A stretch of 64,000 bases of DNA from Rhodoferax ferrireducens (GTDB lineage: Bacteria; Pseudomonadota; Gammaproteobacteria; Burkholderiales; Burkholderiaceae_C), in NCBI GenBank assembly GCA_002083775.1, contig MTEI01000004.1, positions 186,001 through 250,000 on the forward strand, read 5' to 3'. Below the pieces are notes generated by a model. It was not told where the DNA came from. It saw only the letters and a list, made by a program, of their open reading frames with translations, and made no database searches. Numbering within the stretch: the first letter of the stretch is position 1; each line of letters begins with the position of its first letter. This document shows positions 4,562 through 59,548 of this stretch, piece by piece. The translations under genes and the position numbers were made by a program.

Positions 4562-4606
4562 TTATAGCTGTAAGCCCTTTTATCATAAGGGCTTCAGGCC
4601 AATTTT
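4562..4606. repeat. Dispersed palindromic repeat, copy 1
   Basis: Reverse-orientation copy: TATAGCTGTAAGCCC, a short loop, then ATAAGGGCTTCAGGCC. It lies just upstream of the lone ABC ATPase gene and supplies an alternative in-frame start for it. Confidence 0.8.
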
Positions 4607-4705
4607 ATACCAAACTTTCAAATTGGAACCAAGCTGCCACACAGCCTGGCTTGCCTGCCTAGAATGCGTGACTGACCCACACCACAAGCCCCACCACCCC
4701 CGAAC

Positions 4706-7027
4706 ATGATGCAGGCCACCCTGTTCCACCTCACGCTTGGCAGGCTGTTCGCAGGCTGGCTGGCGCTGTGCCTGCCCCTGGTTTGGGCGGCACCTGCCCC
4801 GCCTGCCCCAACTGTCCCGGTGCGCGAGAAGCTGACCTTGGGTGTGTTCGCCTACTTGGGCGTGGCGCAAACGCAGGCCCAGTACCAGCCTCTGGTGGAC
4901 TATCTCAACAGCACGCTGCGCGAGGAGCAGGTGGAACTGAAGGTGCTGCCACAAGCCGAGATCAACCACGGGGTGGAAAGCGGCGAGCTCGACATCGTCA
5001 CCACCAACCCGACGCACTTTTTGGTCATCCGCAACCGCTACCCGCTGACCGGGGTGATCGCCACCCGTATGTCGGAGGTGAACGGTCAACCGGTGCAGCA
5101 TCTGGCCGGCGTCATCATCACCCGGACTGATCGCCTGCACATTCGCGAGCTGGCCGATGTGCGTGGCAAGGTGGTGGCCACCCCCAGCACCCAGCACATG
5201 GGCGGGTACCGGGCGCAGGCTTATGAGCTCTACCTGGCGGGCGTCAGAATGCCTGACGACGTACGCCAGTTGCTGGAACTTGAAACCCACCAGGCAGTGG
5301 TGCATGCGGTGCTGGATGGCCGCGCCGAAGTGGGGCTGATCCGCGAGGGCGTGCTCGAACTGATGCAGCACCAGGGCCAGCTGCACAGCGGCCAGCTCAA
5401 GCTGATCCACCCACAGCAGCACGCCAACTATCCGTTCCAGGTGTCGACCCGGTTGTATCCGGAGTGGCCGGTGTTCGCCCTGCCGCATGTCTCAGACAAG
5501 GCGGTGCGGCATGTGGCAGCAGCCCTGTTTGCGCTGGAGCCAGATCACCCGGCTGCCCGCGCCGCAGGGGCCCACGGCTACACCGTGTCAGCCGACTACC
5601 TGCCGGTAGAAGCCTTGGCGCGTGCCTTGCGCCTGCCGCCGTTTGACCAGAACCTGGACGTGACCTGGCAGGACATCTGGCAAACCTGGCGGCTGGGCCT
5701 GATCACTGCAGCGGTGGCAACCCTCATCATCCTGGCGCTGGCGGCGGTGCTGGTGTGGCTGGCCAAGCGCGAGCGCCAGGCGCGCGCACGCCTGAGCCTG
5801 CTGCTCGACACCCTGGGTGAGGGCGTTTATGGCACCGACGCCAGCGGACACTGCAGCTTTATCAACCGCGCGGCACTGCACATGCTGGGTCGCACCGAAG
5901 CCGAGGTGCTGGGCCAGTCGCCACACCTGCTGTTTCACCCCCAGCGCCAGGACGGTCAGCCCTATCTGGAAGCCGAGTGCCCGATGTCGCAAACCTTGCA
6001 CGATGGCCAGGTGCGCCGCGGTGAAGAGTGGTTTGTGCACCCCACACAAGGTGGTTTCCCGGTAGGCTATGTCGTCAGCCCCATCCGCCAGGGCGGCGCC
6101 CTGATTGGCTCGGTGGTGGCGTTTCAGGACATTCACCTGCGCAAGAAGATTGAGGCCAACTTGCACCACCTGATCAAGGAGCTGACGCAGACCAACAGCC
6201 AACTCAAAGACACCCGCAACCAGCTGCTGCAGAGCGAAAAGCTGGCTGCCATAGGCCAGCTGGCGGCAGGTGTGGCGCATGAGATCAACAACCCGGTGGC
6301 CTTTGTCACCTCCAACCTGGGCACGCTGGCAAGCTACGTGCGCGACCTGTTGCGCCTGGGCGAAGTGGCCAGCACCACCCCGGCGGGCCAACAGCTGGCC
6401 ACCGAGATCGACCTGCCCTACCTGCGCCAGGACGTGACCGAACTGCTGACCGAGTCCCGCGACGGGCTGGAGCGGGTGCGCAAAATTGTGCTGGACCTGC
6501 GCAACTTCTCACGCAGCGGCGATACGCAGTGGGAGGACGCCAGCGTGAACGACTGCCTGGACGCAGCCCTGAACATCATCTGGAACGAGCTCAAGTACAA
6601 GTGCACACTGCACAAACACTATGGCGAGCTGCCGCTGATCCGCTGCAACGCCTCACAGCTCAGCCAGGTCTTCATGAACCTGCTTCTCAACGCCGCCCAG
6701 GCCATTCCTGCCCAAGGCGATATCACCCTGACCACCGAGGCAGTGACTGACCCGGCACTGGGCCGGGTGGTGCGCATCACCCTCAGCGACACCGGCACCG
6801 GCATTGCACCTGAGAACATCCAGCGCATTTTTGACCCCTTCTTCACCACCAAGCCAGTCGGCAAGGGCACTGGCTTGGGCCTGTCGCTGGTGTGGGGCAT
6901 TGTCGAGCAGCATCAGGGGCACATTGACGTAGCGAGCCAGCCAGGCCAGGGCACCACGTTTACCGTGACGCTGCCGGTCGCAACCCAGGCTCCAACGGGT
7001 GCCACAACTGCGCCAGAAACGGCCTGA
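4706..7027 (+). CDS. PhnD-like periplasmic-domain/PAS sensor histidine kinase
   Basis: A 773-residue membrane sensor. Residues 1-30 are a signal/anchor; 40-300 form a PhnD-type phosphate/phosphonate-binding fold in the periplasm; 331-352 are a membrane helix; about 362-475 are a PAS domain with INRAALHMLGRTEAEV; about 480-512 are coiled coil. The HisKA box carries the phosphorylated His (GVAHEINNP, H525). The ATPase domain has an N box (NLLLNAAQAI) and DTGTGIAPENIQRIF plus GTGLGLSL. No response regulator is adjacent, so it is an orphan kinase. Related fusions use a former transporter binding fold to sense an anion or other small ligand; the ligand here is unknown. Confidence 0.88.
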   Translation: MMQATLFHLTLGRLFAGWLALCLPLVWAAPAPPAPTVPVREKLTLGVFAYLGVAQTQAQYQPLVDYLNSTLREEQVELKVLPQAEINHGVESGELDIVTTNPTHFLVIRNRYPLTGVIATRMSEVNGQPVQHLAGVIITRTDRLHIRELADVRGKVVATPSTQHMGGYRAQAYELYLAGVRMPDDVRQLLELETHQAVVHAVLDGRAEVGLIREGVLELMQHQGQLHSGQLKLIHPQQHANYPFQVSTRLYPEWPVFALPHVSDKAVRHVAAALFALEPDHPAARAAGAHGYTVSADYLPVEALARALRLPPFDQNLDVTWQDIWQTWRLGLITAAVATLIILALAAVLVWLAKRERQARARLSLLLDTLGEGVYGTDASGHCSFINRAALHMLGRTEAEVLGQSPHLLFHPQRQDGQPYLEAECPMSQTLHDGQVRRGEEWFVHPTQGGFPVGYVVSPIRQGGALIGSVVAFQDIHLRKKIEANLHHLIKELTQTNSQLKDTRNQLLQSEKLAAIGQLAAGVAHEINNPVAFVTSNLGTLASYVRDLLRLGEVASTTPAGQQLATEIDLPYLRQDVTELLTESRDGLERVRKIVLDLRNFSRSGDTQWEDASVNDCLDAALNIIWNELKYKCTLHKHYGELPLIRCNASQLSQVFMNLLLNAAQAIPAQGDITLTTEAVTDPALGRVVRITLSDTGTGIAPENIQRIFDPFFTTKPVGKGTGLGLSLVWGIVEQHQGHIDVASQPGQGTTFTVTLPVATQAPTGATTAPETA

Positions 7028-7032
7028 AAACC

Positions 7033-8454: not shown

Positions 8455-8540
8455 GGTGCTGGCAGTTTAGGCCGCAAAGGCCACCTGCGCCAAGTCGACC
8501 ACCCCGTTTGAACGACCGGCTCTAACTCACGAAGAAGACT

Positions 8541-8590
8541 GTCATTGCAGATTACCGGCAACCTGGATCCCGGGTCGGGCCCGGGATGAC
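8541..8590. repeat. Intergenic GTCATTGC...GGGATGAC repeat, copy 1
   Basis: A 50-base element between the aldehyde dehydrogenase and msrA. It begins GTCATTGC, contains GGATCCCGGGTCGGGCCC, a strong palindrome, and ends GGGATGAC. A 68-base relative in the opposite orientation is at 47718-47785. Confidence 0.7.
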
Positions 8591-8604
8591 AACCTTCAAT
8601 AGCG

Positions 8605-9300: not shown

Positions 9301-9462
9301 GGGGTATCCAAAGGGCTGGCCGGCAGGGTGCTGCCGGCATCTTGGGGCAAAAGATAACTGTTTGTCAAAAACCGTGGGCATGAGCTGGCTTTGCCCGCCA
9401 GGCGCTCACCGCAGCGCGGGCTTTGATTCACAATCTGCCCGATATTTTTACCATTGGCGCGC

Positions 9463-9906
9463 ATGACTTCTTCACACACCAGTCCCACCGTTGTTACCTG
9501 GCTGGGCTATGGCGGGCTGATTCCTTTTGTGGCGCTGGCAGCGGCCAGCCTGCTGGACCCTGCCCACATCGCCACCTGGGTGCCAGGCCTGCTGGGGTAT
9601 GGCGCGGTGATTTTGAGCTTTGTCGGTGCGCTGCACTGGGCCTTTGCCATGACGCACCCGCAACTGCAGGCAGCCCCCAACCACGCGCTGTATGTCTGGA
9701 GCGTGGTGCCGTCGCTGTTGGGCTGGCTGGCTTTGATGATGGTGCCCAAGGCTGGTGTCATGCTGCTGATAGCGGGTCTGCTGGCACACTATCGGCAAGA
9801 TCTGCGCCTGGCGCGGGTGATCGAATTGCCCGCATGGTATGTGCCGCTGCGCCTGCGCCTGACCGTGGTGGCCTGCCTGTGCCTGGCGGCCGTGTTTGCC
9901 ACCTGA
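9463..9906 (+). CDS. DUF3429-family inner-membrane protein
   Basis: A 147-residue protein with about four or five membrane helices and little soluble sequence. The GALHWAFAM motif in the second helix pair is characteristic of the DUF3429 family, whose function is unknown. The ATG at 9463 was preferred over a TTG at 9454; neither has a strong ribosome site. It is the first plus-strand gene of the photolyase block, 58 bases before the small Cys-rich gene. DUF3429 genes are often seen near photolyases, which is a contextual link only. Confidence 0.7.
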   Translation: MTSSHTSPTVVTWLGYGGLIPFVALAAASLLDPAHIATWVPGLLGYGAVILSFVGALHWAFAMTHPQLQAAPNHALYVWSVVPSLLGWLALMMVPKAGVMLLIAGLLAHYRQDLRLARVIELPAWYVPLRLRLTVVACLCLAAVFAT

Positions 9907-9964: not shown

Positions 9965-10165
9965 ATGACCGAGGACACACGCTGCTGCGGCACCGGCACC
10001 TGCATGATCAACGCTGAAGGTTTGTGCTGGTGTGGCCAGCGCTGGAATGGCGATGAAATGCTGCCGCCAAATTCCGAGTCAAATCAGCCTCCAGCCCCAG
10101 TAGAGAAAGGGCTGGAAGCTGCAGAAATCGAAGCAAACCAGCCCGCTGCCACCACCACGCGCTGA
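9965..10165 (+). CDS. Small Cys-rich protein preceding photolyase
   Basis: A 66-residue cytoplasmic protein with an excellent AAGGAG ribosome site seven bases before the ATG. Residues 7-23 contain CCGTGTCMINAEGLCWCG, five cysteines that could bind a metal or an iron-sulfur centre. Its tail (about residues 39-55) is encoded by a copy of the dispersed palindromic repeat and reads as low-complexity Pro/Ala/Glu. The photolyase gene starts 13 bases after its stop, so the two are probably cotranscribed. I recognise it as a conserved hypothetical of Burkholderiales but no function is known. Confidence 0.7.
   Translation: MTEDTRCCGTGTCMINAEGLCWCGQRWNGDEMLPPNSESNQPPAPVEKGLEAAEIEANQPAATTTR
10081..10128. 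repeat. Dispersed palindromic repeat, copy 2 (coding)
   Basis: Forward orientation, degenerate: CAGCCTCCAGCCCC, loop, GAAAGGGCTGGAAGCTGC. It encodes the variable tail of the small Cys-rich protein. Confidence 0.65.
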
Positions 10166-10178
10166 GCCTGCCCAGCGG

Positions 10179-11756
10179 ATGCCTTACAGCCTGGTCTGGT
10201 TCAAGCGCGACCTGCGCCTGCACGACCACGCTGCCCTGGCTGAGGCTGCCGCCCATGGGCCACTGCTGTGCCTGTATGTGATCGAACCCAGCCTGTGGGC
10301 GCAGCCGGATGCGGCGCGCCAGCACTACGAATTCATCCTGGAAAGCCTGCGCGAACTGGCCCGGGCGCTGAAAGCCCTGGGCGGTCGCCTGCATGTGCGC
10401 ACCGGCGAGGTAACCGAGGTTCTAACCCAACTGCATACTTTGGCGCCGTTCGGGCGGCTGGTGTCCCACGAAGAAACCGGCAATGCGCTCACCTTTGAGC
10501 GCGACAAAGCGGTGGCCCGCTGGTGCCGCGCACACGGTGTGGCCTGGCAAGAGTTCCCGCAGTTTGGCGTGGTGCGCCGCCTTGAAAGCCGCAACCACTG
10601 GGCAAGTCACTGGGCAGCCCACACGCAGGCGCCACAACTGCCCGGCCCCGAGCCCGGCACGCTGCAGTTTTGCCCTTCGCCCTGGCCAGCCCAGCCCGTG
10701 CCCAGCGCGCAAGACCTGGGGCTGGACGCCTATGACCCACCACAGCGCCAGCGCGGCGGGCGAAGCCTCGGGCTGGCGGTGCTGGAGAGTTTTCTGCTGG
10801 ACCGCTGCCGCCACTACCGGGGCGGGATTTCGTCGCCGCTGTCAGCGCCCAGCGCCTGCTCGCGCCTGTCACCCCACCTGAGCTTTGGCACGTTGAGCCT
10901 GCGTGAGGTGGTGCAAGCCACGGATGCCAAGCTGCTACACCTCAAAGAGCACTCTGCTTATGCAGCAAAAGGGCTGGAGGCCTTTTTGAGCCGATTGCAC
11001 TGGCACTGCCACTTTATCCAGAAGCTGGAATCTGAACCCGAGCTGGAATGGCGCAACCTGCACCGGGGTTACGACGGCCTGCGCGAGCACGACTTCAACC
11101 CGGCTCACTTGGCGGCGCTGACCGAAGGCCGCACCGGCTGGCCGATGGTGGACGCCTGCGTGGCCATGCTGCGCCAGACCGGCTGGCTGAACTTTCGCAT
11201 GCGCGCCATGCTGGTGTCGGTGGCGGCTTACCCGTTGTGGCTGCACTGGCGAGAGGTAGGTGAGTGGCTGGCGCGGCAGTTTCTGGATTACGAGCCCGGC
11301 ATCCACTGGAGCCAGCTGCAAATGCAGTCCGGCACCACCGGCATCAACACCACCCGCGTGTACAACCCGGTCAAGCAGGCGCAAGACCATGATCCACAAA
11401 GCATTTTTGTGCGCCGCTGGTGCCCGGCGCTGCGCCGCGTGCCAGACAGCTGGATTCTGGAACCCTGGCGCATGCCCGAGAGCGTGCAGCTGGCTTGCGG
11501 GGTACGCGTGTGTGCCGATGCTCCGGCGGGCGCAGCAGATGTCTGGCCGCTGCCGCTGGTCGATCTGGAAGCCGCCACCCGCGCTGCCAAAGACCGTCTG
11601 CACAGCCTGCGGCGCACGCCCGAGGTGCGTGCTGCCAAAGCCGCCATCGTAGAAAAACATGGTTCGCGCAAGGCGCGGGATGGCAACCCGCGCCGCTCGC
11701 GGGCCAATCCCGTTTCAGATAACCGCCAGATCAGTTTGTTTGACGCGCCCGAGTGA
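10179..11756 (+). CDS. Deoxyribodipyrimidine photolyase/cryptochrome family protein
   Basis: A 525-residue flavoprotein of the photolyase superfamily. The N-terminal antenna domain begins with SLVWFKRDLRLHDHAAL, and the C-terminal FAD domain carries HWSQLQMQSGTTGINT and RVYNPVKQAQDHDP. The GTTGIN variant differs from the ASTGTDA of class I CPD enzymes, so the subclass is uncertain; it could repair CPD lesions or act as a photoreceptor. A basic tail (about 490-515) is unusual and may contact DNA. Residues about 255-270 are encoded by a degenerate palindromic repeat. It follows the small Cys-rich gene closely and precedes higBA. Confidence 0.85.
   Translation: MPYSLVWFKRDLRLHDHAALAEAAAHGPLLCLYVIEPSLWAQPDAARQHYEFILESLRELARALKALGGRLHVRTGEVTEVLTQLHTLAPFGRLVSHEETGNALTFERDKAVARWCRAHGVAWQEFPQFGVVRRLESRNHWASHWAAHTQAPQLPGPEPGTLQFCPSPWPAQPVPSAQDLGLDAYDPPQRQRGGRSLGLAVLESFLLDRCRHYRGGISSPLSAPSACSRLSPHLSFGTLSLREVVQATDAKLLHLKEHSAYAAKGLEAFLSRLHWHCHFIQKLESEPELEWRNLHRGYDGLREHDFNPAHLAALTEGRTGWPMVDACVAMLRQTGWLNFRMRAMLVSVAAYPLWLHWREVGEWLARQFLDYEPGIHWSQLQMQSGTTGINTTRVYNPVKQAQDHDPQSIFVRRWCPALRRVPDSWILEPWRMPESVQLACGVRVCADAPAGAADVWPLPLVDLEAATRAAKDRLHSLRRTPEVRAAKAAIVEKHGSRKARDGNPRRSRANPVSDNRQISLFDAPE
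10945..10990. repeat. Dispersed palindromic repeat, copy 3 (coding, degenerate)
   Basis: Reverse orientation: CTTATGCAGCAAAAGGGC followed by TGGAGGCC and a T-run. It is the weakest copy; it falls inside the first photolyase gene and could be chance similarity. Confidence 0.4.
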
Positions 11757-12683: not shown

Positions 12684-14120
12684 ATGGCACCCCTGATTTA
12701 CTGGTTTCGTAACGACCTGCGCCTGACTGACGCGCCTGCGCTGGCGTTTGCTGTCCAACTGGCGCAGCGCACTGGCCAGACGCTGCTGCCGGTGTTTTGC
12801 CAAGCCCCACCGGAAACCACCCGCTGGGGTTTTGCGCGCGTAGGCCCGCACCGCCAGCGCTATTTGCGCGCCACGCTGGACGATCTGGCCGCGCGTTTGC
12901 AGGCACATGGCAGCCGACTGCTTGAGCTGTTCGGCGCACCCGCCACCACACTGCCCGCGTTGTGCCAAGCGCTACGTGCCACCCACGTCGTCTGCGAAGA
13001 CATTGCTGCGCCCGAAGAGCAAGCTGAGGTGGTGGCGTTGCGCGCAGCTGGTCTGACGGTGGAGGCGGTGTGGCAATCCAGCCTGCTTGAACCCGCGCAA
13101 CTGCCGTTTGCCCCAAGCGACTTGCCCGAGGTGTTCACCAGCTTTCGCCAACTGGTGGAAAAAACCTCTACAGTCCCGCCCAAGCCGCTGCCCGAGCCCG
13201 CTGCGCTGCCAGCACTACCGCCGCTGAACACACCCGAATTGCATCAGTTTTACAAAGAAAATCAGGCTCTAGCCCATACAGTTAAAGGGCTGACAGCTAC
13301 AGTTAATGAAGTCACTGAGGTGCGCTCGTCTTTCCCCTACCACCTGCCCGAATGGGCTGGCGGCGAAAGTACGGCGCTGGCGCACCTGCAGCGCTACCTG
13401 GCCGCCAAACTGCCGCACAGTTACAAAGCCACGCGCAACCAGCTCAGCGGTACCGACTTTTCCAGCAAGTTCTCGCCCTGGCTGGCCAGCGGGGCACTGT
13501 CAGCGCGCACCGTTTATGCCGAACTCAAGTCCTTTGAGGCCGAATTCGGTGCCAACGATGGCAGCTACTGGCTGTGGTTTGAGCTGCTGTGGCGCGACTA
13601 CTTTCGCCTGCTGCACCTGAAATACGCTGCCCGGCTCTACCACGCCGAGGGTTTGCGCGGGGCGCAGGCCACCCAGATCAGCCCGGACAGGGATGCGGCC
13701 CGGCCCCGGCGCAACCCAGCCGCCACGCCAGCGCCCAGGTCAAGCCACAACCCGCCGTTCTTACCCTTCCCCAGCGCCGACGCGCCAATCCTGCAGCGCT
13801 GGTGCCAAGGTAACACTGGCACGACAATGGTGGATGCCGCCATGCGCGAGCTGAGCGGCAGCGGCTACCTGTCCAACCGCCTGCGCCAGGTGGTGGCGAG
13901 TTTCTGGATTCACGAACTGAAAGGCGACTGGCGCGCTGGCGCCGCCTGGTTCGAGTCGCAACTGGTGGACTATGACGTCTATAACAACACCGGCAACTGG
14001 CTCTACATCGCCGGCCTGGGTACCGACCCGCGCGGCGGGCGCCACTTTGACGTGGCCAAACAAACACGCGAACATGACCCTGATGGCAGTTACCAAAAGC
14101 TGTGGCTGGGTCTTGGCTGA
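12684..14120 (+). CDS. Cryptochrome DASH
   Basis: A 478-residue photolyase-superfamily protein. Residues 4-12 (LIYWFRNDL) open the antenna domain; the FAD domain has FSSKFSPWLASGALSART, SYWLWFELLWRDYFR, and WCQGNTGTTMVDAAMREL then YLSNRLRQ, all diagnostic of the DASH group. DASH proteins bind FAD and a folate and repair CPDs mainly in single-stranded DNA; some also signal. Residues about 192-208 (QALAHTVKGLTATVNEV) are encoded by a palindromic repeat in the interdomain linker. The ATG at 12684 was preferred because it begins the conserved strand directly. Confidence 0.93.
   Translation: MAPLIYWFRNDLRLTDAPALAFAVQLAQRTGQTLLPVFCQAPPETTRWGFARVGPHRQRYLRATLDDLAARLQAHGSRLLELFGAPATTLPALCQALRATHVVCEDIAAPEEQAEVVALRAAGLTVEAVWQSSLLEPAQLPFAPSDLPEVFTSFRQLVEKTSTVPPKPLPEPAALPALPPLNTPELHQFYKENQALAHTVKGLTATVNEVTEVRSSFPYHLPEWAGGESTALAHLQRYLAAKLPHSYKATRNQLSGTDFSSKFSPWLASGALSARTVYAELKSFEAEFGANDGSYWLWFELLWRDYFRLLHLKYAARLYHAEGLRGAQATQISPDRDAARPRRNPAATPAPRSSHNPPFLPFPSADAPILQRWCQGNTGTTMVDAAMRELSGSGYLSNRLRQVVASFWIHELKGDWRAGAAWFESQLVDYDVYNNTGNWLYIAGLGTDPRGGRHFDVAKQTREHDPDGSYQKLWLGLG
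13257..13305. repeat. Dispersed palindromic repeat, copy 4 (coding)
   Basis: Forward orientation: GGCTCTAGCCC, loop, TTAAAGGGCTGACAGCTA. It lies in frame in the cryptochrome DASH gene, in the linker between the two domains. Confidence 0.8.
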
Positions 14121-15873: not shown

Positions 15874-17442
15874 ATGGCCAGCCGCAGCGAAACCCCGCCC
15901 GCCCACACCCTGCGCCTGATCCTGGGCGACCAGCTCAACCCGCTGCACCCCTGGTTTGCCCAAGTGGATGCGGGCGTGGTGTATGCGCTGATGGAAATCC
16001 GCCAGGAAACCGATTACGTGCTGCACCACGCACAAAAGGTCATCGCCATTTTTTCGGGCATGCGCGACCTGGCGCGGCAGTTGCTGGAGGCTGGTCACCG
16101 CGTGCACTACCTGAGCATCAACGACCCGGCCAACGAGCAAAGTCTGCCCGGCAATTTGAGTGCACTCTTCACCGTCTACCAACCCCAAGTCTTTGAGTAC
16201 CAGGATCCCGATGAGTACCGGCTGGATCAGCAGTTGCAAGCCTTTTGTGCCTCCAGCCCTTATGCAGAAAGGGTGAGTAGCTCTCAGGTCGATAGCGCTC
16301 ACTTTTACACCCAGCGCCACGAGGTGGCCGAATTGTTTAGCCAGCGCAAGCAGTGGCTGATGGAAACCTTTTACCGCCACATGCGCAAACGCCACCAGGT
16401 GCTGATCGACGGGGCTGGCAAACCCGCAGGCGGCCAATGGAACTTTGACGCCGAGAACCGCAAACCCTGGAAGGGCATCCCGCCCGAGCCGCCCGACCTG
16501 CGCCCACGCCACGACCACAGCGCGCTCTGGGCCACCATTCAGGCGGCAGGCGTGCAGAGTTTTGGCGAGCCCGCTGCCGACAACTTCCGCTGGCCACTCA
16601 ATCGCGCCGAGGCGTTGCAACAACTGGAGCACTTCGTCACCCACGCCCTGCCCCATTTTGGCGACTATGAAGATGCCATGAGCCGCAAAGCCCAGCGCCT
16701 GTTCCACTCGCTGCTCTCGTTTGCGATGAACGTGAAGATGTTGAACCCGCGTGAAGTGGTCAGCCGGGTGGAGGCCGAGTGGCGCGCTGGCCGCGTGGAA
16801 TTGGCTGCCGCCGAAGGGTTTATCCGCCAGATCATCGGCTGGCGCGAATACATCCGGGGCATATACTGGGCGCAGATGCCGGGTTATGACGAGCGCAACT
16901 TCTTTGCGCACACCACGCCGTTGCCTCAATGGTTCTGGACGGGTGACACGCGCATGAACTGCCTGGCCGCCGCCATTGGTGGCTCGCTGCAAAACGCTCA
17001 TGCGCACCACATTCAGCGGCTGATGGTGATTGGCAACTTTGCCCTGCTGGCCGGACTGGATGTGCAGGCGCTGCACCGCTGGTACCTGGGTGTGTACATC
17101 GATGCGTTTGAATGGGTGGAACTGCCCAACACGCTGGGCATGAGCCAGTTTGCCGACGGCGGCCTGCTGGCCACCAAACCGTATGTGAGCAGCGCCGCCT
17201 ACATCGACCGCATGAGCGACTACTGCAAAGGCTGCGCGTATGACAAAAAACAGCGCCTGGGTGACTCAGCTTGCCCGTTCAACGCGCTGTATTGGGACTT
17301 TTACCAGCGCAATACCGCCAGGCTGGAACGCAACCCGCGTATTGGCATGGCCTACCAGCAACTCGCCCGCATGGACGCAGCTACGCTGGAGGCATTGCAA
17401 GTGCGCGCCACCCAGATACGTGGGCAGCTGAATGCACTTTGA
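15874..17442 (+). CDS. phrB: Iron-sulfur bacterial cryptochrome/photolyase (PhrB-like, 6-4 type)
   Basis: A 522-residue cryptochrome/photolyase-related protein. The N-terminal domain starts LRLILGDQLN; the FAD domain contains QIIGWREYIRGIYW. Four cysteines at 363, 451, 454 and 467 (in NCLAA, YCKGC and SACPFN) have exactly the spacing of the 4Fe-4S ligands known for Agrobacterium PhrB. That group repairs (6-4) photoproducts and carries a lumazine antenna. A palindromic repeat encodes residues about 124-138 (SSPYAERVSSSQV). It is the last gene of the photolyase block and starts four bases after the cyclophilin-like gene. Confidence 0.93.
   Translation: MASRSETPPAHTLRLILGDQLNPLHPWFAQVDAGVVYALMEIRQETDYVLHHAQKVIAIFSGMRDLARQLLEAGHRVHYLSINDPANEQSLPGNLSALFTVYQPQVFEYQDPDEYRLDQQLQAFCASSPYAERVSSSQVDSAHFYTQRHEVAELFSQRKQWLMETFYRHMRKRHQVLIDGAGKPAGGQWNFDAENRKPWKGIPPEPPDLRPRHDHSALWATIQAAGVQSFGEPAADNFRWPLNRAEALQQLEHFVTHALPHFGDYEDAMSRKAQRLFHSLLSFAMNVKMLNPREVVSRVEAEWRAGRVELAAAEGFIRQIIGWREYIRGIYWAQMPGYDERNFFAHTTPLPQWFWTGDTRMNCLAAAIGGSLQNAHAHHIQRLMVIGNFALLAGLDVQALHRWYLGVYIDAFEWVELPNTLGMSQFADGGLLATKPYVSSAAYIDRMSDYCKGCAYDKKQRLGDSACPFNALYWDFYQRNTARLERNPRIGMAYQQLARMDAATLEALQVRATQIRGQLNAL
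16243..16285. repeat. Dispersed palindromic repeat, copy 5 (coding)
   Basis: Forward orientation, very well kept: GCCTCCAGCCCTTATGCA then GAAAGGGTGAGTAGCTCT. It lies in frame inside the iron-sulfur photolyase gene. Confidence 0.85.
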
Positions 17443-17445
17443 GAG

Positions 17446-17495
17446 CCAAATTGGCCTCTAGCCCTTTTCTGTAAAGGGCTGATAGCTACTATAAA
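17446..17495. repeat. Dispersed palindromic repeat, copy 6
   Basis: Forward orientation and close to consensus: AATTGGCCTCTAGCCC, loop, GTAAAGGGCTGATAGCTA. It starts four bases after the iron-sulfur photolyase stop and could act as a weak transcription terminator. Confidence 0.9.
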
Positions 17496-17541
17496 TAGAG
17501 TATTTTGGCGGTCTGCTGCGTTTCAAGGCGCGGCGATATCG

Positions 17542-23168: not shown

Positions 23169-24740
23169 ATGCTCAAAAAACTTCTTTTATCTGCTTTACT
23201 TTTTATAGCTGTAAGCGCTTATGCCATAACGGCTGAAGAGGTAAAAGGCATCACAGTGGGTGAGACCGATAGCCGCGTCGAAGCGCTGGGCAAAGCCATG
23301 CTTACCGCAGACGACAAAACGGCTGCCTTCCTGCAAGCGCTGTCTGACGACGCGGTCAAGGTCGCGGGCGACAAAGTGCTGGTACTCAAGGGGGACAAAG
23401 CCTTTGATGCCGTCACCGATGTGGAAACCCCGCTGCCCGACGATGCCGAGGACGTGATCAACAACAACCGCATGCGCGGAGAGATTGACTCGGCACTCGC
23501 AGCGCTAAAGCTGTTTTCGCCAGACGACAAAGTGCGTGCCGCAGCAGTGAAACAACTCCAGAGCGACGCAGATGAAACCAAGCTGCCGCTGATCGAAAAA
23601 GCCCTGGCTACCGAGCAAAACACCGCCATCAAGGACCAACTTGGCATGGTGCGCGCCGCCGCCCTGCTGGGCAGTGAAGACAAAACCAAACGCCTCGAAG
23701 CCGCCAAATTGCTCGCCACCAGCGGCCAGGCCAACACCAAAACCATGCTGCTGGCCCGGCTGGAGGCCGAGACCGAGCCAGATGTCAAGGCCGCCCTGAG
23801 TGCCGCGCTGCGCCAGGTCGAATCTGCTCTGGCCTGGGGCGACAAGCTGGGCGCCATGTTCAGCGGTATCAGTCTGGGATCGATCCTGTTGCTGGTGGCG
23901 TTGGGCCTGGCCATCACCTACGGGCTGATGGGTGTGATCAACATGGCGCACGGCGAACTGATGATGATTGGCGCCTACGCGACTTATGTGGTGCAGGGCT
24001 TGTTCAGAACCTACCTGCCCGACGCATTTGACTGGTATTTGCTGGCGGCTGTGCCGGTAGCGTTTCTCGCTTCGGCTTTGATGGGTGCGATTCTGGAGCG
24101 CAGCGTGATCCGTTTTTTGTATGGCCGCCCGTTGGAAACCTTGCTGGCTACCTGGGGTATCAGCCTGATGCTGATGCAACTGGTGCGTACGATTTTTGGT
24201 GCGCAAAACGTCGGGGTGGAAAACCCGGCGTGGATGAGTGGTGGTGTGCAAGTGCTGGGTAACCTGTCGCTTCCCTACAACCGGCTGGTGATCATCGGTT
24301 TTGCGTTTTTTGTTCTGGGCAGTGTGGCCTGGCTGATTGGCCGGACACGACTCGGCCTGTTTGTGCGCGGTGTCACGCAAAACCGCCCGATTGCGTCGTG
24401 CATGGGTGTGAACACCGCGCGCATTGACACCTACGCCTTCGCTTTGGGATCGGGCATTGCCGGGCTGGCGGGATGCGCCTTGAGCCAGGTCGGCAATGTG
24501 GGGCCGGACCTGGGCCAGAGCTACATCGTGGACTCGTTCATGGTGGTGGTGCTGGGCGGTGTCGGACAACTGGCGGGCACGGTGTATGCCGCGCTGGGTC
24601 TGGGCATTCTGAACAAATTTCTGGAGGGCTGGGTGGGCGCAGTGCTTGCCAAGATTGCACTGCTGGTGTTCATCATCATTTTTATTCAAAAGCGCCCACA
24701 GGGCATCTTCGCGATGAAAGGCCGCTCGGCGGAAGCTTGA
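23169..24740 (+). CDS. urtB: Urea ABC transporter permease UrtB
   Basis: A 523-residue permease with the usual UrtB plan: signal peptide, an extra periplasmic domain of about 200 residues with HEAT-like helical repeats, then eight or so membrane helices from about residue 232 (MFSGISLGSILLLVALGLAITYGLMG). The signal peptide (LLFIAVSAYAITAEE) is encoded by a copy of the dispersed palindromic repeat, which seems to have been adopted as export signal. The in-frame ATG at 23169 is preferred over one 24 bases upstream. It pairs with UrtC, whose start follows two bases after the stop. Confidence 0.95.
   Translation: MLKKLLLSALLFIAVSAYAITAEEVKGITVGETDSRVEALGKAMLTADDKTAAFLQALSDDAVKVAGDKVLVLKGDKAFDAVTDVETPLPDDAEDVINNNRMRGEIDSALAALKLFSPDDKVRAAAVKQLQSDADETKLPLIEKALATEQNTAIKDQLGMVRAAALLGSEDKTKRLEAAKLLATSGQANTKTMLLARLEAETEPDVKAALSAALRQVESALAWGDKLGAMFSGISLGSILLLVALGLAITYGLMGVINMAHGELMMIGAYATYVVQGLFRTYLPDAFDWYLLAAVPVAFLASALMGAILERSVIRFLYGRPLETLLATWGISLMLMQLVRTIFGAQNVGVENPAWMSGGVQVLGNLSLPYNRLVIIGFAFFVLGSVAWLIGRTRLGLFVRGVTQNRPIASCMGVNTARIDTYAFALGSGIAGLAGCALSQVGNVGPDLGQSYIVDSFMVVVLGGVGQLAGTVYAALGLGILNKFLEGWVGAVLAKIALLVFIIIFIQKRPQGIFAMKGRSAEA
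23199..23241. repeat. Dispersed palindromic repeat, copy 7 (coding, urtB signal peptide)
   Basis: Reverse orientation: TTTTATAGCTGTAAGCGC, loop, ATAACGGCTGAAGAGG. It closely matches copy 1 and forms codons 11-25 of urtB. Confidence 0.8.
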
Positions 24741-26784: not shown

Positions 26785-27415
26785 GCGCTTGTTTGCCGGG
26801 TGTGGCCCGGCGGCCACTCACTTTCTTTTGCTTCGCCAAAAGAAAGTAAGCAAAGAAAAGGCGACCCCACTGTCTGCGACCCGCAGCTTTGCTGCGGGCA
26901 ACCTGAGTTGCGACGGCTTGGCGGGGAACCGCTCGAACTCGCTACGCTCAGACAATCGCGGTTCCTTTTCCCGCCAAACCGCCACAACTCAGGCGCATAC
27001 AGAAGGGGTTGGGGGCAGGCTGCTCGTGGCGCTGCGAGCCACCTTGCCGGACTCCGTTACCCATGATTGCAAATTAAATCCCGTCACCGTCAGCGCCAGC
27101 GATATCCCATCCCCTTTTTGCCACAACATAGGCATCAACAGCGCCGCGTGCATTTGCAATGCCCGGCGCAGCCGGGCGAGCAGTGCACTGCCTTGCGCCG
27201 TGGTGCGTCGGCGAGTAGCGCAGGGCTGGGCGGATCAGGGCTCGCGATTGTTTGAGGCGATAGCCGAGTTCGAGCGAGACCCCGCCCAGACCGAGCAACG
27301 CAGCGTGCCCGAAGCTCCGCTTCGGGACGACGCATTCGGCTCGCCTTTCTTTTGGGTACTTTTCTTTGGCGAAGCAAAGAAAAGTGCCTCGCCCGCCGGG
27401 GCGAGACCCGGCCAG
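26785..27415. repeat. Inverted pair of hairpin-rich repeats splitting urtD and urtE
   Basis: Two diverged copies of a roughly 210-base unit face each other (about 26785-26996 and 27195-27415). Each unit has, in order, a GCCGGG/CCCGGC hairpin, a T-rich hairpin with loop CTTCGC (26821-26846; 27358-27385), a second hairpin with eight-base arms (26880-26898; 27308-27326) and a CTCGAACTCG...CAATCGCG tail. The arms differ between copies but stay paired. The middle (27000-27190) has no gene; several frames stay open by composition only. I recall similar unnamed repeats in Comamonadaceae genomes. Confidence 0.75.
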
Positions 27416-34169: not shown

Positions 34170-34553
34170 TCAGGCGCAGGCCGAGTGCCGTGCTGGACCG
34201 GCGACCGGGCGCGTCAGGTCGGTAGCGTGGCTGGCTAGCTCGGCGGTATTCAGAAACACCTGGCCGTTTTCCATCTTGACGCTGAATTTGGGCGTGCAGC
34301 CCACGTCCGGTGCAGCGGCTTCACCGCTGCCCAGGCCAATCGTCCAGTTGTGCAGCGGGCAAGCCACACTGGTGCCAAACACAATGCCCTGGCTCAGTGG
34401 GCCACCTTTGTGCGGGCAACGGTCCAGCAGGGCAAAGACTTCATCTTTGTCGTTGCGGAACAGCGCCACGTCCAGACCGTGGGTTCGGGTGACGCGGCGC
34501 GAACCCAGAGCCGGGATGTCGCTGAGGCTGCAGATGGCGGTCCAGTCATTCAT
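34170..34553 (-). CDS. nirD: Nitrite reductase small subunit NirD
   Basis: A 127-residue Rieske-fold subunit of the NADH-dependent assimilatory nitrite reductase. The [2Fe-2S] ligands C46, H48, C65 and H68 in CPHKGG and CPLHNW are all present, whereas many NirD proteins have lost them. The ATG at 34553 was chosen because residues before it derive from a palindromic repeat. It lies 93 bases after nirB. Confidence 0.93.
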   Translation of the reverse strand: MNDWTAICSLSDIPALGSRRVTRTHGLDVALFRNDKDEVFALLDRCPHKGGPLSQGIVFGTSVACPLHNWTIGLGSGEAAAPDVGCTPKFSVKMENGQVFLNTAELASHATDLTRPVAGPARHSACA

Positions 34554-34560
34554 ATTGCTA

Positions 34561-34606
34561 TTTCTTTCGTAGCTATTGACGTTTATGGAATAAGGGCTAA
34601 AGGCAT
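34561..34606. repeat. Dispersed palindromic repeat, copy 9
   Basis: Reverse orientation: TAGCTATTGACGTTTATG then AATAAGGGCTAAAGGC. It sits in the nirB-nirD gap just before the nirD start. Confidence 0.75.
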
Positions 34607-34646
34607 AAAACACTTATAAAACACATGGGAGCCAGGGCCGTGCACT

Positions 34647-38961: not shown

Positions 38962-39894
38962 TCAGGATTTCACTTCCTCAAACGTGAACGCGGTGGCGAT
39001 CTTCACCAGCGCGTATTCCAGAATCAGCCCGACGATGCCAATCACGAAGATGGCGATGATGATGTTTTTGACGTTCAGGTTGTTCCACTCGTCCCACACC
39101 CAGAAACCGATGCCGACACCGCCGGTCAACATCTCGGCCGCCACAATCACCAACCACGCCGTGCCCACCGCCAAGCGTACGCCGGTCAACATGTACGGCA
39201 GCACCGAGGGGAACAAAATCTTGGTAACGATCTTCCACTCGCTCAAATTCAGCACCCTCGCCACGTTCATGTAGTCCTGCGGCACCCGTTGCACACCCAC
39301 CGCGGTGTTGATGATCATGGGCCAGATGCTGCAGATAAAAATGGTCCAGATCGCCGCCGGATTCGCGCCCTTGAACACCAGCAGACCAATCGGCAGCCAG
39401 GCCAGCGGGGACACCGGGCGCAGCAGGCTGATGAGCGGGTTGAACATGCGGCTCAAAAACTCAAAGCGCCCCACCGCAAACCCCACCGGAATACCCACCA
39501 CCGCTGCCAGCCCGAAGCCGATGGCCACACGCTCCAGCGAGGCCAGAATGTTCCAGCCCACGCCCTGGTCATTGGGGCCGTTGCGGTAAAACGGGTCGCT
39601 GAAAATCACCACCGCTTGTTTGAACGTGTCGATGGGCGACGGAATGCTGCTGGCGGTGCTGATGCTCACCAGCGCCCACAAGCCAACCAGCAGGCCCAGC
39701 CCCATCAGCGGCGGCAAAACCGCAAGCCACAAACCGCGCCAGTCATACGCCGCTTTTTGCGAGACGTTTGGGGCTGTAGCCCCCTGCTTATCTGAGGGAG
39801 AAGCTATAGATTTCATAAAATTCCGAACAACAATGGGCACATCAGCTGTTGCGTCTGAAGCGTCCAAGGGCGAGTGAAAAACGGCGCTGACCAT
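38962..39894 (-). CDS. nrtB: Nitrate ABC transporter permease NrtB
   Basis: A 310-residue inner-membrane permease with six or seven helices; the first is LWLAVLPPLMGLGLLVGLWAL. It has the NrtB-type PISLLRPVSPLAWLPIGLLVF segment and an EAA-like loop (RVLNLSEWKIVTKILFPSVLP). An AGGAG site precedes the ATG at 39894. The cytoplasmic N-terminus, residues about 26-42 (IASPSDKQGATAPN), is encoded by a palindromic repeat, so this tail is probably dispensable. Confidence 0.93.
   Translation of the reverse strand: MVSAVFHSPLDASDATADVPIVVRNFMKSIASPSDKQGATAPNVSQKAAYDWRGLWLAVLPPLMGLGLLVGLWALVSISTASSIPSPIDTFKQAVVIFSDPFYRNGPNDQGVGWNILASLERVAIGFGLAAVVGIPVGFAVGRFEFLSRMFNPLISLLRPVSPLAWLPIGLLVFKGANPAAIWTIFICSIWPMIINTAVGVQRVPQDYMNVARVLNLSEWKIVTKILFPSVLPYMLTGVRLAVGTAWLVIVAAEMLTGGVGIGFWVWDEWNNLNVKNIIIAIFVIGIVGLILEYALVKIATAFTFEEVKS
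39769..39818. repeat. Dispersed palindromic repeat, copy 10 (coding)
   Basis: Forward orientation: GGGGCTGTAGCCCC, TGCTTATCTGAGGG, AGAAGCTATAGATTTC. It is in frame in the N-terminal tail of nrtB. Confidence 0.75.
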
Positions 39895-41362: not shown

Positions 41363-41392
41363 GTTAAAATCAAGGCTCTTTTACTATGTATT

Positions 41393-41440
41393 CAATAGCT
41401 GTTAACTCTCTATTTATAAGGGCTAGAGGCCATTTTTATA
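41393..41440. repeat. Dispersed palindromic repeat, copy 11
   Basis: Reverse orientation: AATAGCTGTTAACTCTC then TATAAGGGCTAGAGGCC and a T-run. It lies between nasT and the sigma-54 promoter. Confidence 0.85.
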
Positions 41441-41473
41441 TAAAACTTAGTGGCAGCACTGGATTTGTGCACT

Positions 41474-47680: not shown

Positions 47681-47717
47681 GGTGTCACCAGCAAGATCGA
47701 TATGAAAAATCAGTTTT

Positions 47718-47785
47718 GTCATCCCGGGCTTGACCCGGGATCCACGAATCCGGAGGCATGGATTGCGGATCGAGTCCGCAATGAC
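47718..47785. repeat. Intergenic GTCATTGC...GGGATGAC repeat, copy 2
   Basis: A 68-base element in reverse orientation: GTCATCCCGGGCTTGACC at one end, GATTGCGGATCGAGTCCG and CAATGAC at the other. It contains two strong palindromes (CCCGGG region and GCGGA/TCCGC) and is related to 8541-8590. Confidence 0.8.
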
Positions 47786-48637: not shown

Positions 48638-48648
48638 TTTTATATAAG

Positions 48649-48695
48649 AAATTGGCCTCTAGCCCTTATCTATAAAGGGCGAGTAGCTATACAAA
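48649..48695. repeat. Dispersed palindromic repeat, copy 12
   Basis: Forward orientation and the best consensus copy: AATTGGCCTCTAGCCC, TTATCTATAAAGGGC, GAGTAGCTATAC. It lies between the binding-protein and ATPase genes. Confidence 0.95.
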
Positions 48696-48705
48696 AAGGA
48701 CTAAC

Positions 48706-49734
48706 TTACTTCTTGGGCAGCACGTCAAGCGCGGCCTTGGCTGGCAAAAAGCTGCCATTCCACACCAGATCGGGGTTGACACGGGTTTTGGTGTTGAAAG
48801 CATCCGACACCTGGCTGGCCATGAGCGACAAACGTGGCCCATTGACTTGGCCAAACCCCTCGGCACGGGCATTAGGGCTGTTGATGACGGTGTCGATGGC
48901 GAGCTGCAGGCGGCGGGTTTCCAGCGGCACATTGACGATGCCGTCTCGCGCTTTCACATCAGCAATCGCCGCACTGGGGTTGCCAATCACGTCTTTGGCG
49001 CCCTTGGCAAAAGCCTCCAGAAACGCCTTGATCGCCCCCGGGTTCTCTTTCACCATTTTGGGGCTGGCAATGATGGCGTTGCCATACAGCTTGACGCCGT
49101 AGCTAGGGTAAGGCAACACAGTCACGTCTTCAGCCTTGACGCCACGTGCTTCCAGGTTGAGCAGCGAGGTGAAGGTGAACCCGGTGATGGCGTCCACATC
49201 GCCGCGCACCAGCATGGTTTCACGCAGCGGGGGGTCCATGGCGGTCCAGGTCACGCCGGTGATGTTGTTGGCCTTGGAAAAGATCGGGAAGGCGCGCCGG
49301 CCGGCGTCAAACACCGGGGCCCCGAGCTTTTTGCCGTTCAGGTCAGCCGGGGTCTTGATGCCAGACTTCTTCAAAGCCATGACCGACGCCGGCGTGTCGT
49401 TGTAAACCATCATCACCGCCACCGGTTTGTTGGGCGCGTCGGGGTTGTTGGCGTGGAACTCCATCAACGCGGCGAGGTCGGCAAAACCCATGTCGTAAGC
49501 ACCCGAGGCCACGCGGGTGACCGTGCCGCCCGAGCCGTTGCCGGCATCCACCGCCACATCCAGCCCGGCAGCCTTGAAATAACCCTTGGCCACAGGCGTC
49601 AAAAACAGGGCGCTGGGGCCTTCAAAGCGCCAGTCCAGCTGGAACTTGATCGACGTGGTCTGCGCCTGCGCCTGCCCAAACAAAGAGGCAGCTGCCAGAA
49701 CCAGGGAAGTATGGAGAAAAGTGCGTTTGTGCAT
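48706..49734 (-). CDS. ABC transporter substrate-binding protein, NMT1/THI5-like
   Basis: A 342-residue periplasmic receptor with signal peptide (LHTSLVLAAASLFGQAQA, cleavage near residue 26). The mature N-terminus SIKFQLDWRFEGPSALFLTP and YDMGFADLAALMEFHA match NMT1/THI5-like proteins, which bind pyrimidine precursors, riboflavin-like or other ring compounds. It heads the transporter-deaminase-ureD series. The ATG at 49734 was chosen to start the signal. Confidence 0.88.
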   Translation of the reverse strand: MHKRTFLHTSLVLAAASLFGQAQAQTTSIKFQLDWRFEGPSALFLTPVAKGYFKAAGLDVAVDAGNGSGGTVTRVASGAYDMGFADLAALMEFHANNPDAPNKPVAVMMVYNDTPASVMALKKSGIKTPADLNGKKLGAPVFDAGRRAFPIFSKANNITGVTWTAMDPPLRETMLVRGDVDAITGFTFTSLLNLEARGVKAEDVTVLPYPSYGVKLYGNAIIASPKMVKENPGAIKAFLEAFAKGAKDVIGNPSAAIADVKARDGIVNVPLETRRLQLAIDTVINSPNARAEGFGQVNGPRLSLMASQVSDAFNTKTRVNPDLVWNGSFLPAKAALDVLPKK

Positions 49735-54438: not shown

Positions 54439-54453
54439 AAAAAGCCTGCCCTG

Positions 54454-55422: not shown

Positions 55423-55604
55423 ATGGCTTACAACGCGCCGTAACGCCCAGCGCGGTGGTGGGTGCCCAGAGTCTGCCGGACCATACCTGGGTTCATGTGG
55501 TTTGAAACCGTATCTGTTTGACGCGAAGCAAAGCAAGTCGACATGTCTGGTCACAAAATGTACTTGGCTTCACTGCCTTGTTCAAAGAAAAGCAAAACAC
55601 AGTC

Positions 55605-57356: not shown

Positions 57357-57439
57357 CCAAGGGCAGGCACACTGACTTGCAAACTGGCGCAAACAATATT
57401 AGATTCAGGCATTACTTCTCAGTGATAGGTGGCAACAAT

Positions 57440-58474: not shown

Positions 58475-58605
58475 TTCACAAGGTCGATGAACTTTTCAAC
58501 CAGCGCGAGGCACGCTGTTGGGTATGCCCTGGTGGTCTTCCACTACCGCTGCATGGTGCGTTCTTCCTCTCGCACCCGAGCGCTGCCTGTCGGCCCGCTT
58601 GGTCG

Positions 58606-59487
58606 TCAAACCGCCACTTCCCCCAGCCGCCCATCCCGCATGTCGCTCAGCGCCTGGTAAATCTCTTGCTGGGTGTTCATGACAAACGGGCCGTATTGGG
58701 CAATCGGCTCCTTGAGCGGTTGGCCAGAAATCAGCAGCACCTTGGCATCCGCCGTGGCGTCGATCACCACGCCATCCGCCTCGGGTGAATTGGCCAGCAA
58801 AGCCATGCGCTGCACCGGCACAGTCTGGCCCGCGATGGTCACCTCGCCGCGATGCACATAAACGAAGGCGTTGTGGCCTGCAGGGACCAATTGCTCAAAA
58901 CGCGCCCCGGCAGGCAAAAACACATCCAGATACAGCGGCGCGGTGGCTTCGCGTGTCACGGCACCGGTCACACCCTGGCTGCTACCGGCGATCACCGTCA
59001 CGGCCACACCCTGCCCGGTGGTGTAGCGCGGCAGGTCGGCGGCCTTGAAGTCGCGGTACCAAGGCGCGCACATCTTGTCGCGTGCGGGCAGGTTCAGCCA
59101 GAGCTGGAAACCTTCCATCACGCCATCTTCCTGCTGCGGGATTTCGGAGTGGATCACGCCGCGCCCGGCCGTCATCCACTGCACGCCACCGTTTTCCAGC
59201 AGCCCTTCGTGGCCCGCGCTGTCGCGGTGCAACATGCGCCCGGCAATCATGTAGGTGATGGTCTCAAAACCGCGATGCGGGTGGTCCGGGAAACCGGCGA
59301 TGTAGTCGTCGGGCTGGTCGCTGCCAAAGGCATCCAGCATCAAAAACGGGTCCAGCCGCTGCTGCAGGTTGTGCGTCAGTACCCGCGTGAGTTTCACGCC
59401 CGCTCCGTCCGAGGTGACTTGGCCAGCCACCAGGCGCTCGACGCTGCGGGGGTGCTGAACGGTGGCGCTTGTCAAACTGGTGTCCAT
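58606..59487 (-). CDS. Pirin family protein
   Basis: A 293-residue bicupin of the pirin family. The N-terminal cupin contains the metal-binding FPDHPHRGFETITY with a later HRDSAGHEG and GRGVIHSEIP. Bacterial pirins include quercetinase-like dioxygenases and regulators; which applies is unknown. It follows azoR on the same strand with 67 bases between them, mostly repeat copy 13. A quinone/flavonoid detoxification context with AzoR is reasonable. Confidence 0.93.
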   Translation of the reverse strand: MDTSLTSATVQHPRSVERLVAGQVTSDGAGVKLTRVLTHNLQQRLDPFLMLDAFGSDQPDDYIAGFPDHPHRGFETITYMIAGRMLHRDSAGHEGLLENGGVQWMTAGRGVIHSEIPQQEDGVMEGFQLWLNLPARDKMCAPWYRDFKAADLPRYTTGQGVAVTVIAGSSQGVTGAVTREATAPLYLDVFLPAGARFEQLVPAGHNAFVYVHRGEVTIAGQTVPVQRMALLANSPEADGVVIDATADAKVLLISGQPLKEPIAQYGPFVMNTQQEIYQALSDMRDGRLGEVAV

Positions 59488-59500
59488 AAATAATCCTCTA

Positions 59501-59548
59501 TTAATAGCTGCTGGCCCTTATGCATAAAGGGCTAGAGGCCAATTTGAC
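59501..59548. repeat. Dispersed palindromic repeat, copy 13
   Basis: Reverse orientation, near consensus: TTAATAGCTGCTGGCCC, TTATGCATAAAGGGC, TAGAGGCCAATTT. It fills most of the azoR-pirin gap. Confidence 0.95.

Follow-up and report, generated by a model that had tools for sequence, protein, structure and literature searches.

A dispersed, dyad-symmetric DNA element with lineage-specific letters in Rhodoferax and related Comamonadaceae

Why does one palindrome recur through a 64,000-nucleotide stretch of a Rhodoferax ferrireducens contig (hereafter the window), inside genes as well as between them? A preliminary description had listed 13 copies of about 45 bp. We scanned with a weight matrix of 70 columns, derived from the 31 exact-core copies found in the source genome, only one of which (48638) comes from the window, and with a covariance model (R1) trained on 38 copies, 8 of them in the window. 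Most comparisons below involve the source genome itself (G000), a sister species (G054) and another Rhodoferax (G010). The repeat is a dispersed, dyad-symmetric DNA element with a unit length of about 65–70 bp, longer than first reported and far more numerous. All 13 reported sites score above the maximum of the shuffled window (20 shuffles: best 9.3 bits, mean 2.5), but only ten are strong by matrix score; the remaining three (10945, 30726, 39769) must be taken as weak, degenerate or chance. R1 recovers nine of the 13 at E<1e-4, one of which, 34552 (the ninth; E=5e-6), lies outside its training set, and the three weak sites are absent from its match list for the window up to E=10. One further place in the window, not among the 13, reaches 15.4 bits with the matrix. 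The copies lie in both orientations, as had been claimed:

4547–4616, minus strand: element copy that overlaps an ABC-transporter ATPase ORF (3876–4586, minus strand) at its 5' end; 69.9 bits with R1 (training copy), 61.9 bits with the matrix (held out)
10070–10139, plus strand: element copy within a small Cys-rich ORF (read by eye), in its C-terminal tail, common to G054; 41.6 bits (matrix)
13248–13317, plus strand: element copy in frame in a photolyase, between its PF00875 and PF03441 domains, common to G054; 57.7 bits (matrix)
16232–16301, plus strand: in-frame element copy within a DPRP photolyase-related protein, common to G054 and G032; 47.0 bits (matrix); about 8 of 11 genus orthologs have a copy that can be made out by eye
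17437–17506, plus strand: element copy at the DPRP gene's stop codon, missing from G054 (112 vs 37 bp); 68.9 bits (matrix)
23188–23257, minus strand: element copy near the 5' end of a gene called at 23169–24740, common to G054 and G010; 33.8 bits (matrix), only E=7.8 with R1, yet equally placed in both those genomes
34552–34621, minus strand: element copy at a Rieske ORF's 5' end (ORF 34170–34613, minus strand); 49.4 bits (matrix)
41378–41447, minus strand: intergenic element copy; 63.4 bits with R1 (training copy), 70.7 bits with the matrix
48638–48707, plus strand: element copy filling the 68 bp that separate an NMT1 substrate-binding gene from an ABC ATPase gene, common to G054; 81.7 bits (matrix, in whose training set it stands)
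59487–59556, minus strand: element copy filling the 67 bp between Flavodoxin_2 and pirin genes, common to G054; 59.1 bits (matrix)
10945–10990, minus strand: copy within a photolyase gene, weak, degenerate or chance; 13.7 bits (matrix)
30726–30771, minus strand: weak, degenerate or chance copy; 16.8 bits (matrix)
39769–39814, plus strand: weak, degenerate or chance copy; 13.5 bits (matrix)

On a wider scale, a matrix scan of 370,629 bp from the source genome finds 66 copies of at least 25 bits, about one per 5.6 kb, and we put the number in the whole Rhodoferax-like genome at hundreds. The same scan of two controls, one shuffled and one reversed copy of a 200-kb block, gave no match of 20 bits or more. 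R1 detects the element in 48 of 150 family genomes; at least 150 copies stand among the candidate matches, 150 of the 1,713 candidates having been scored. A search of the window against Rfam gave no match above the gathering score. Among 72,556 plasmid records one element query had no match and another had three partial matches, and viral contigs yielded one match to the exact core pattern.

Going by our own crude gene finder, 31 of the 66 copies in the 370.6 kb lie wholly within genes, and the other 35 fall between genes or across a gene end, although only about 14% of the sequence was called non-coding. Copies in co-directional gaps run with the genes in 15 cases and against them in 9, and those inside genes are split 15 to 16 between the same and the opposite strand. 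None of the 15 same-strand copies uses the frame with the stop, an avoidance that gene calling itself partly forces. The seven copies first reported as in frame comprise four strong ones (10070, 13248, 16232 and 23188) and the three weak sites. For the photolyase copy at 16232, the one site examined in depth, the expected length difference between orthologs with and without the insert is missing: most family orthologs lacking the copy are only about 4 residues shorter, three genus relatives lacking it are of equal length, and, on these sequences, the copy is not a 45–70 bp insertion.

Elsewhere the element was inserted as a unit, as seen from empty junctions between aroB and dgt and from another junction, 71 bp long in G000 but 12 bp in G010. 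A copy occupies 37 of 76 aroB-dgt junctions, always in one orientation, and 34 of the 39 junctions without one have a gap of at most 28 bp. The threshold here, 5 bits, was chosen after viewing a gap between 5.7 and -7.4 bits; gap lengths were counted as far as the point where the Dgt alignment begins, which need not coincide with the start codon; and the names aroB and dgt, like ureB and ureC, are our reading of the translations and not a database result. The one clean empty junction inspected shows no target duplication, though its sequence is too diverged for certainty. The junction can serve as a filled-or-empty marker for Comamonadaceae genomes. Some Rhodoferax records, among them L212 (the nearest named relative), L215 and L228, lack the aroB-dgt copy, which calls for losses or repeated gains.

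The traceable copies are mostly old. Only 22 of the 66 could be anchored in G054, and 19 of these are common to both species, with spacing equal within 3 bp at 12 of the 19 and with the A/T subtype left of GGCC agreeing in all 17 scorable pairs. In G010 only nine could be anchored; eight are shared, two of these copies being weak (16.2 and 20.2 bits), and one is absent. The observation that was to refute the first description is half made: relatives do carry the same nucleotides at several sites, though through the age of the element and not through accidental likeness. With 44 of 66 copies unanchored in G054 and only nine anchored in G010, the rest may have spread recently.

Within these old copies, the parts have fared differently. 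Across the 19 G000–G054 pairs, the two arms are 91% and 91% identical and the AGCTAT block 89%, compared with 51% in the loop, 53% in the spacer, 51% in columns 66–70 and 64% at four-fold sites (9,025 sites in 53 genes). Each pair had to hold a recognisable copy on both sides (at least 25 and at least 12 bits), so the arm identity is inflated, and random non-orthologous pairs are themselves 87%, 79% and 81% identical in the arms and AGCTAT. We infer that selection keeps the half-sites alike. Replacement or gene conversion of the hairpin centre was considered on eight ungapped ortholog pairs, whose loops were 41% identical, near random, and was dropped: the 51% in 19 pairs against 40% in random pairs shows that some memory is kept, so ordinary drift suffices. 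A three-hairpin array, formed of GCTAT/ATAGC and ATTT/AAAT blocks with 7-nt loops, paired no more than shuffles did, and only the dyad was therefore retained.

The arms also differ between lineages. We scored columns 27 and 41, both of which were masked during the search. GCCC/GGGC (CG) occurs in 51 of 66 copies of G000 and 45 of 53 of G054, with GCGC/GCGC (GC) in none; G010 has GC in 58 of 74 copies and CG in none, and eight other genera have GC in 19 of 23. Columns 41 and 27 are the most divergent between G000 and G010 (JS 0.59 and 0.55; next highest, 0.15). The difference extends to shared sites: of eight common to G000 and G010, five change from CG to GC, two from CC to GC and one from CG to CC, and none is unchanged. 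CG was also found in two of three copies of G158 and is therefore not limited to one clade. This mirror-placed, two-letter swap suggests that the element is still being read by something in the cell, although ectopic gene conversion of the arms could be another source of the dialects.

We propose, at a probability of roughly one half, an old, once-mobile non-coding element that is now kept as the recognition site of a putative trans-acting factor. The element, of about 65–70 bp and spread through chromosomes of Rhodoferax and related Comamonadaceae, would have as its core an inverted repeat, left GGCCTCTAGCCCTT and right, on the other strand, ATAGCTnnnAGCCCTT, with a free 7-nt spacer between. 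The putative factor reading these half-sites would most simply be a homodimeric DNA-binding protein acting on double-stranded DNA, or alternatively a Y1/RAYT-type enzyme (RAYT, REP-associated tyrosine transposase) acting on an extruded hairpin. If its specificity shifted, most copies in a genome would follow, giving the GCCC/GGGC and GCGC/GCGC dialects with C/C intermediates. Dispersed bacterial palindromes are usually taken as selfish or as loose structural sites; the traceable copies here behave like binding sites co-evolving genome-wide with something in trans. The long-standing question of why genomes keep such repeats thereby becomes testable, as the dialects predict a factor with matching, species-specific binding.

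A REP-like element of a new sequence class, mobilised by a resident single-copy RAYT and kept by continuing transposition, carries some weight but seems unlikely. The source genome does hold an NF047646 REP_Tyr_transpos protein; a copy abuts the 3' end of the RAYT gene, in constant orientation, in G000, G010, G179, L216, L222 and L223, and lies just upstream of the gene in G069 and L273; and further RAYT loci retain GCTATYAATTTTGAT-like letters in their 3' flanks. Read on the gene's strand, 28 of 120 such flanks reach at least 10 bits, against 0.32% of 7,764 background windows, which are mostly coding. However, these RAYT loci are orthologous to one another, and their 3' copies may therefore go back to a single old insertion; 19 of the 22 anchorable copies are old. 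RAYT is found in 142 of 150 family genomes, the element in 48; being nearly universal, RAYT does not discriminate by its presence as an explanation of the element's distribution. Several of 11 loci read have the RAYT's own flanking GGGGTCAGA repeat.

The comparison with published REPs also shows differences. In the accessible part of PMC3733652, GTAG/CGTC REPs, Rickettsia palindromic elements included, are likewise short, many-copy palindromes beside and inside genes that can supply stop codons; compared with what that part describes, our element has no conserved tag and has AGCTAT and AAAT blocks outside the hairpin as well as arm dialects. GTAG stands at its expected place (columns 46–49) in 13/66, 8/53 and 11/74 copies of G000, G054 and G010, and CGTC anywhere in 9/66, 3/53 and 8/74. 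TIR-flanked RAYT genes, termed 'TIRYT' and having a common GGGGWSAS (PMC3733652, in part), resemble the resident RAYT family in that several of its loci have GGGGTCAGA repeats and an element-like 3' flank; the element sequence is unlike those flanking repeats.

The preliminary description had likened the copies to Rickettsia palindromic elements. That likeness holds for a dispersed palindrome inserted as a unit, with filled and empty junctions, and tolerated inside genes; open-frame insertion finds no support as its hallmark, with 35 of 66 copies outside genes or over a gene end, and the CGTC tag given for the Rickettsia elements in the portion of PMC3733652 consulted is absent. A selfish insertion of MITE or RPE-like type, mobilised by an IS transposase, tolerated in frame and alike through recent common origin, is improbable for the element at large. 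It would account for those junctions, for the 31 in-gene copies and for the 44 not traced to the sister species, but the consensus has, by eye, no terminal inverted repeats, and, as to a full-length IS with element ends, 2.9 Mb of partly redundant sequence gave two spaced half-element pairs against 110 complete copies (lone halves number 30 left and 59 right). Against selfish insertion also stand the copies common to species, the arms more alike than four-fold sites (in score-selected pairs) and the near absence of plasmid or viral matches.

We found no earlier description of the element in the literature searched, in agreement with the first report; the papers listed as containing its sequence words looked unrelated by their titles, and PMC2755013 and PMC5374385 mention only CRISPR repeats. 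The BRE element, as far as the text seen of PMC3110155 goes, measures about 90 bp, has 69% GC in Bordetella, lies partly in tandem and reaches at most 29 copies. Like ours it occurs in Betaproteobacteria including Comamonadaceae, sometimes within genes; its description sets it apart from our element of 65–70 bp, whose collected matches have 27–54% GC.

We also give little credence to an RNA hairpin that would act within operons on mRNA stability, processing or attenuation. In the window, two copies exactly fill short gaps between co-directional genes, and both-side arm changes exceed shuffles slightly in G000 (7 vs 3.3) and G054 (8 vs 4.1), which leaves room for hairpin pairing, though not in G010 (8 vs 8.8). 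But copies take both orientations (15 vs 9 in co-directional gaps, 15 vs 16 in genes), and folds of seven sequences gave weak z-scores up to +0.2, apart from one of -3.1. The aroB-dgt orthologs (36 of the 37 junction copies, L263 being dropped as its contig is shared with L156) gave no covariation: 57.3% paired vs 57.4% in shuffles, and 22 both-side changes vs 25.8. A dyad DNA site with a trans-acting factor is favoured because covariation within genomes is weak.

Very improbable is a DNA-uptake-type signal: like Neisseriaceae DUS dialects, as far as the available part of PMC3630211 describes them, the motif is genome-wide, in and outside genes, on both strands and with lineage-specific letters mostly uniform per genome (51/66, 45/53 and 58/74 copies), but unlike DUS it is a long, 65–70 bp dyad element inserted as a unit at about one copy per 5.6 kb.

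Returning to the recognition-site reading, we tentatively see in Comamonadaceae hundreds of dyad sites for a putative dimeric factor of drifted specificity, with the same letter changed in both half-sites at conserved positions inside and between genes, dialects outside the uptake systems known to us, and a translated element that may have seeded DUF1010 in apparent integron cassettes. DUF1010 (PF06231), a Pfam family of unknown function and the name of a protein family rather than of a repeat, is explained in part as translated repeat: its N-terminal third is the translated element. Four of the 21 loci fetched match only model positions from 20 on, and in the other 17 a copy lies at or directly beside the match.

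The repeat is real, old and widespread, and it stays in place where it can be traced. We matched the exact core GGCCTCTAGCCCTTAT-N4-AAAGGGC at 31 sites in the 4.47-Mb source genome (G000; 14 forward, 17 reverse), and the same pattern read backwards gave no match there. These 31 copies served to build a weight matrix of 70 columns, and the search ignored columns 27 and 41. At 25 bits or more, the matrix found 66 copies in 370,629 bp of G000 (two contiguous blocks, with 28 and 38 copies); at 20 bits or more, it found none in a shuffled or reversed version of the second block (200 kb). By extrapolation, the whole genome would have about 800 copies. The preliminary description had reported 13 copies in the window; at those positions ten score as strong and three as weak. 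The consensus of the 66 G000 copies is atTTata.g.cAAATtgGCCTCTAGCCCTTAT..a.aAAGGGCTaatAGCTATtaAttt.gtAGtaat, in which two half-sites form a central inverted repeat around seven variable bases, and the AAAT and AGCTAT blocks are external to it. A covariance model from G000 copies was positive in 48 of 150 sampled family genomes (44 of 141 genera), probably a lower bound because the model is tuned to the letters of its own genome. Our literature search, whose coverage took in few subscription journals, found no prior description of the element; BRE, in the portion of PMC3110155 consulted, is unlike it in length and GC.

Comparison of junctions bears on the insertion and age of the element. At a junction read as aroB-dgt, we compared 76 loci (at least two on the same contig). 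The gap holds the element in 37, in one orientation throughout. Among the remaining 39, the genes overlap or lie at most 28 bp apart in 34, and a long gap free of the element separates them in five. Named carriers include Rhodoferax, Polaromonas, Curvibacter and one Acidovorax record, and named non-carriers include Ramlibacter, Caenimonas and Variovorax, as well as three Rhodoferax records (L212, L215, L228). This gap (L142:13570-13639), filled or empty across the 76 loci, is a possible phylogenetic marker. At a junction read as ureB-ureC, G000 and its sister species (G054) have a copy and another Rhodoferax (G010) has only 12 bp. At these two sites, therefore, the element is old and was either inserted whole or lost precisely.

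In G054, 19 of the 66 G000 copies are shared, 3 are absent (most clearly copy 17437, 112 vs 37 bp) and 44 could not be anchored; spacing is equal within 3 bp in 12 of the 19. Across these pairs, which were entered only if a copy was recognisable on both sides (a caveat on arm identity), each arm matches at 91% of positions, AGCTAT at 89%, the loop at 51%, the spacer at 53% and the columns right of AGCTAT at 51–65%; four-fold sites in 53 genes are 64% identical. Random copy pairs are already 79–87% identical in the arms and AGCTAT blocks, because all copies stay near one consensus. Despite both caveats, a partner is missing for only 3 of 22 anchorable copies. To the left of GGCC, copies are of an A-rich or a T-rich subtype, and all 17 pairs that could be scored agree in it, which speaks for vertical descent.

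Columns 27 and 41 differ by lineage. They read CG in 51 of 66 G000 copies and 45 of 53 in G054, with GC in neither genome; G010, of the same genus, has GC in 58 of 74 copies and never CG, and eight other genera together have GC in 19 of their 23 copies. CC accounts for 10, 6 and 14 copies in G000, G054 and G010. Between G000 and G010, no remaining column shows a difference of similar size. Nine G000 copies could be anchored in G010, eight shared and one absent; the shared sites (two G010 copies being weak) comprise five CG<->GC, two CC<->GC and one CG<->CC change, with none unchanged. Two sites common to G000 and a further genome, G032, read CG vs CC. These cross-species pairs look vertical, since several have odd letters in common outside the arms. 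Because the two columns are equivalent positions of the half-sites, the pair fits a symmetric reader just as well as it fits a hairpin. We consider the best account to be a site read by a putative factor (probability about 0.5).

The main rival account, which we regard as rather unlikely, is that the element is a REP mobilised by the resident REP-associated tyrosine transposase (RAYT). G000 encodes a RAYT of 234 residues, which is a candidate mover or reader. The closest named relative of the gene is from Rhodoferax sp. U2-2l (87%), so the source organism is probably a Rhodoferax. An element copy directly adjoins the 3' end of the gene, in identical orientation, in G000, G010, G179, L216, L222 and L223, and lies just upstream in G069 and L273. 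On the gene's strand, 28 of 120 3' flanks reach at least 10 bits, vs 0.32% in a background of 7,764 windows, most of them coding; 3 of 120 upstream flanks do so at 10 bits. However, the RAYT loci are orthologs of one another, 142 of 150 family genomes have RAYT, and the gene carries a separate GGGGTCAGA repeat of its own at several of 11 loci, in which it resembles the TIR-flanked RAYT genes in the consulted part of PMC3733652. At RAYT loci (L142:9437-10141 and its flanks; L143-L152, L162-L191), the gene is flanked by a repeat unrelated to the element, with GATGTGTCCC...AATTGGAATCTGACCCCAATT-like letters 3' and, in several loci, GGGGTCAGATTCCAATT 5'.

Hairpin pairing as the main constraint is disfavoured relative to a site read by a factor, because we found no covariation in 36 aroB-dgt orthologs (19 being C/C), none between arms within G010 copies, a small excess in G000 and G054, and one notable RNA fold among seven (z -3.1). 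With G000, G054 and G010 pooled, both-side arm changes numbered 81 vs 42.6, and 23 vs 14.7 without the 27/41 switch; the pooled excess is mostly that switch.

The in-house gene finder, which called 85.6% of the 370,629 bp coding, placed 31 of the 66 copies within genes, 31 between genes and 4 across a gene end. By the same calls, 16 in-gene copies oppose the gene's strand and 15 lie on it; the frame where CTAG would supply a stop codon is used by none of these 15, a result partly forced by gene calling. Two co-directional gene gaps, of 67 and 68 bp, are each filled exactly by one window copy. Copy 16232, in a DPRP photolyase-related protein, speaks against a simple likeness to Rickettsia palindromic elements (RPEs) inserting into open frames: the element is visible by eye in about 8 of 11 genus orthologs, with 42–51 extra bases in two of these, the three without it are equal in length, and orthologs outside the genus are mostly shorter by about 4 residues, so this site is no clean element-sized insert.

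Plasmid records gave no match to a G000 copy and, with a copy reading GC at columns 27 and 41 as query, three partial matches among 72,556; viral contigs gave one match to the exact-core pattern. One plasmid match lies within a DUF1010 gene. An element copy lies at the match or directly beside it in 17 of 21 DUF1010 loci (L337:1442-1684; L338-L357), and in the remaining four the match is confined to model positions from 20 on. The N-terminal third of Pfam DUF1010 (PF06231) is a translated element copy. On a plasmid of Vibrio anguillarum, one DUF1010 gene adjoins resistance cassettes and the integrase of a class 1 integron, and in G179 and G200 successive DUF1010 matches at about 320 bp form a series that looks like integron cassettes.

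The window also holds other inverted repeats:
8555-8592 and 47716-47753, a pair of 38 nt, 84% complementary, unrelated to the element
26812-27393, two nested pairs of 61 and 65 nt, 74–77% complementary, spaced 323–460 nt
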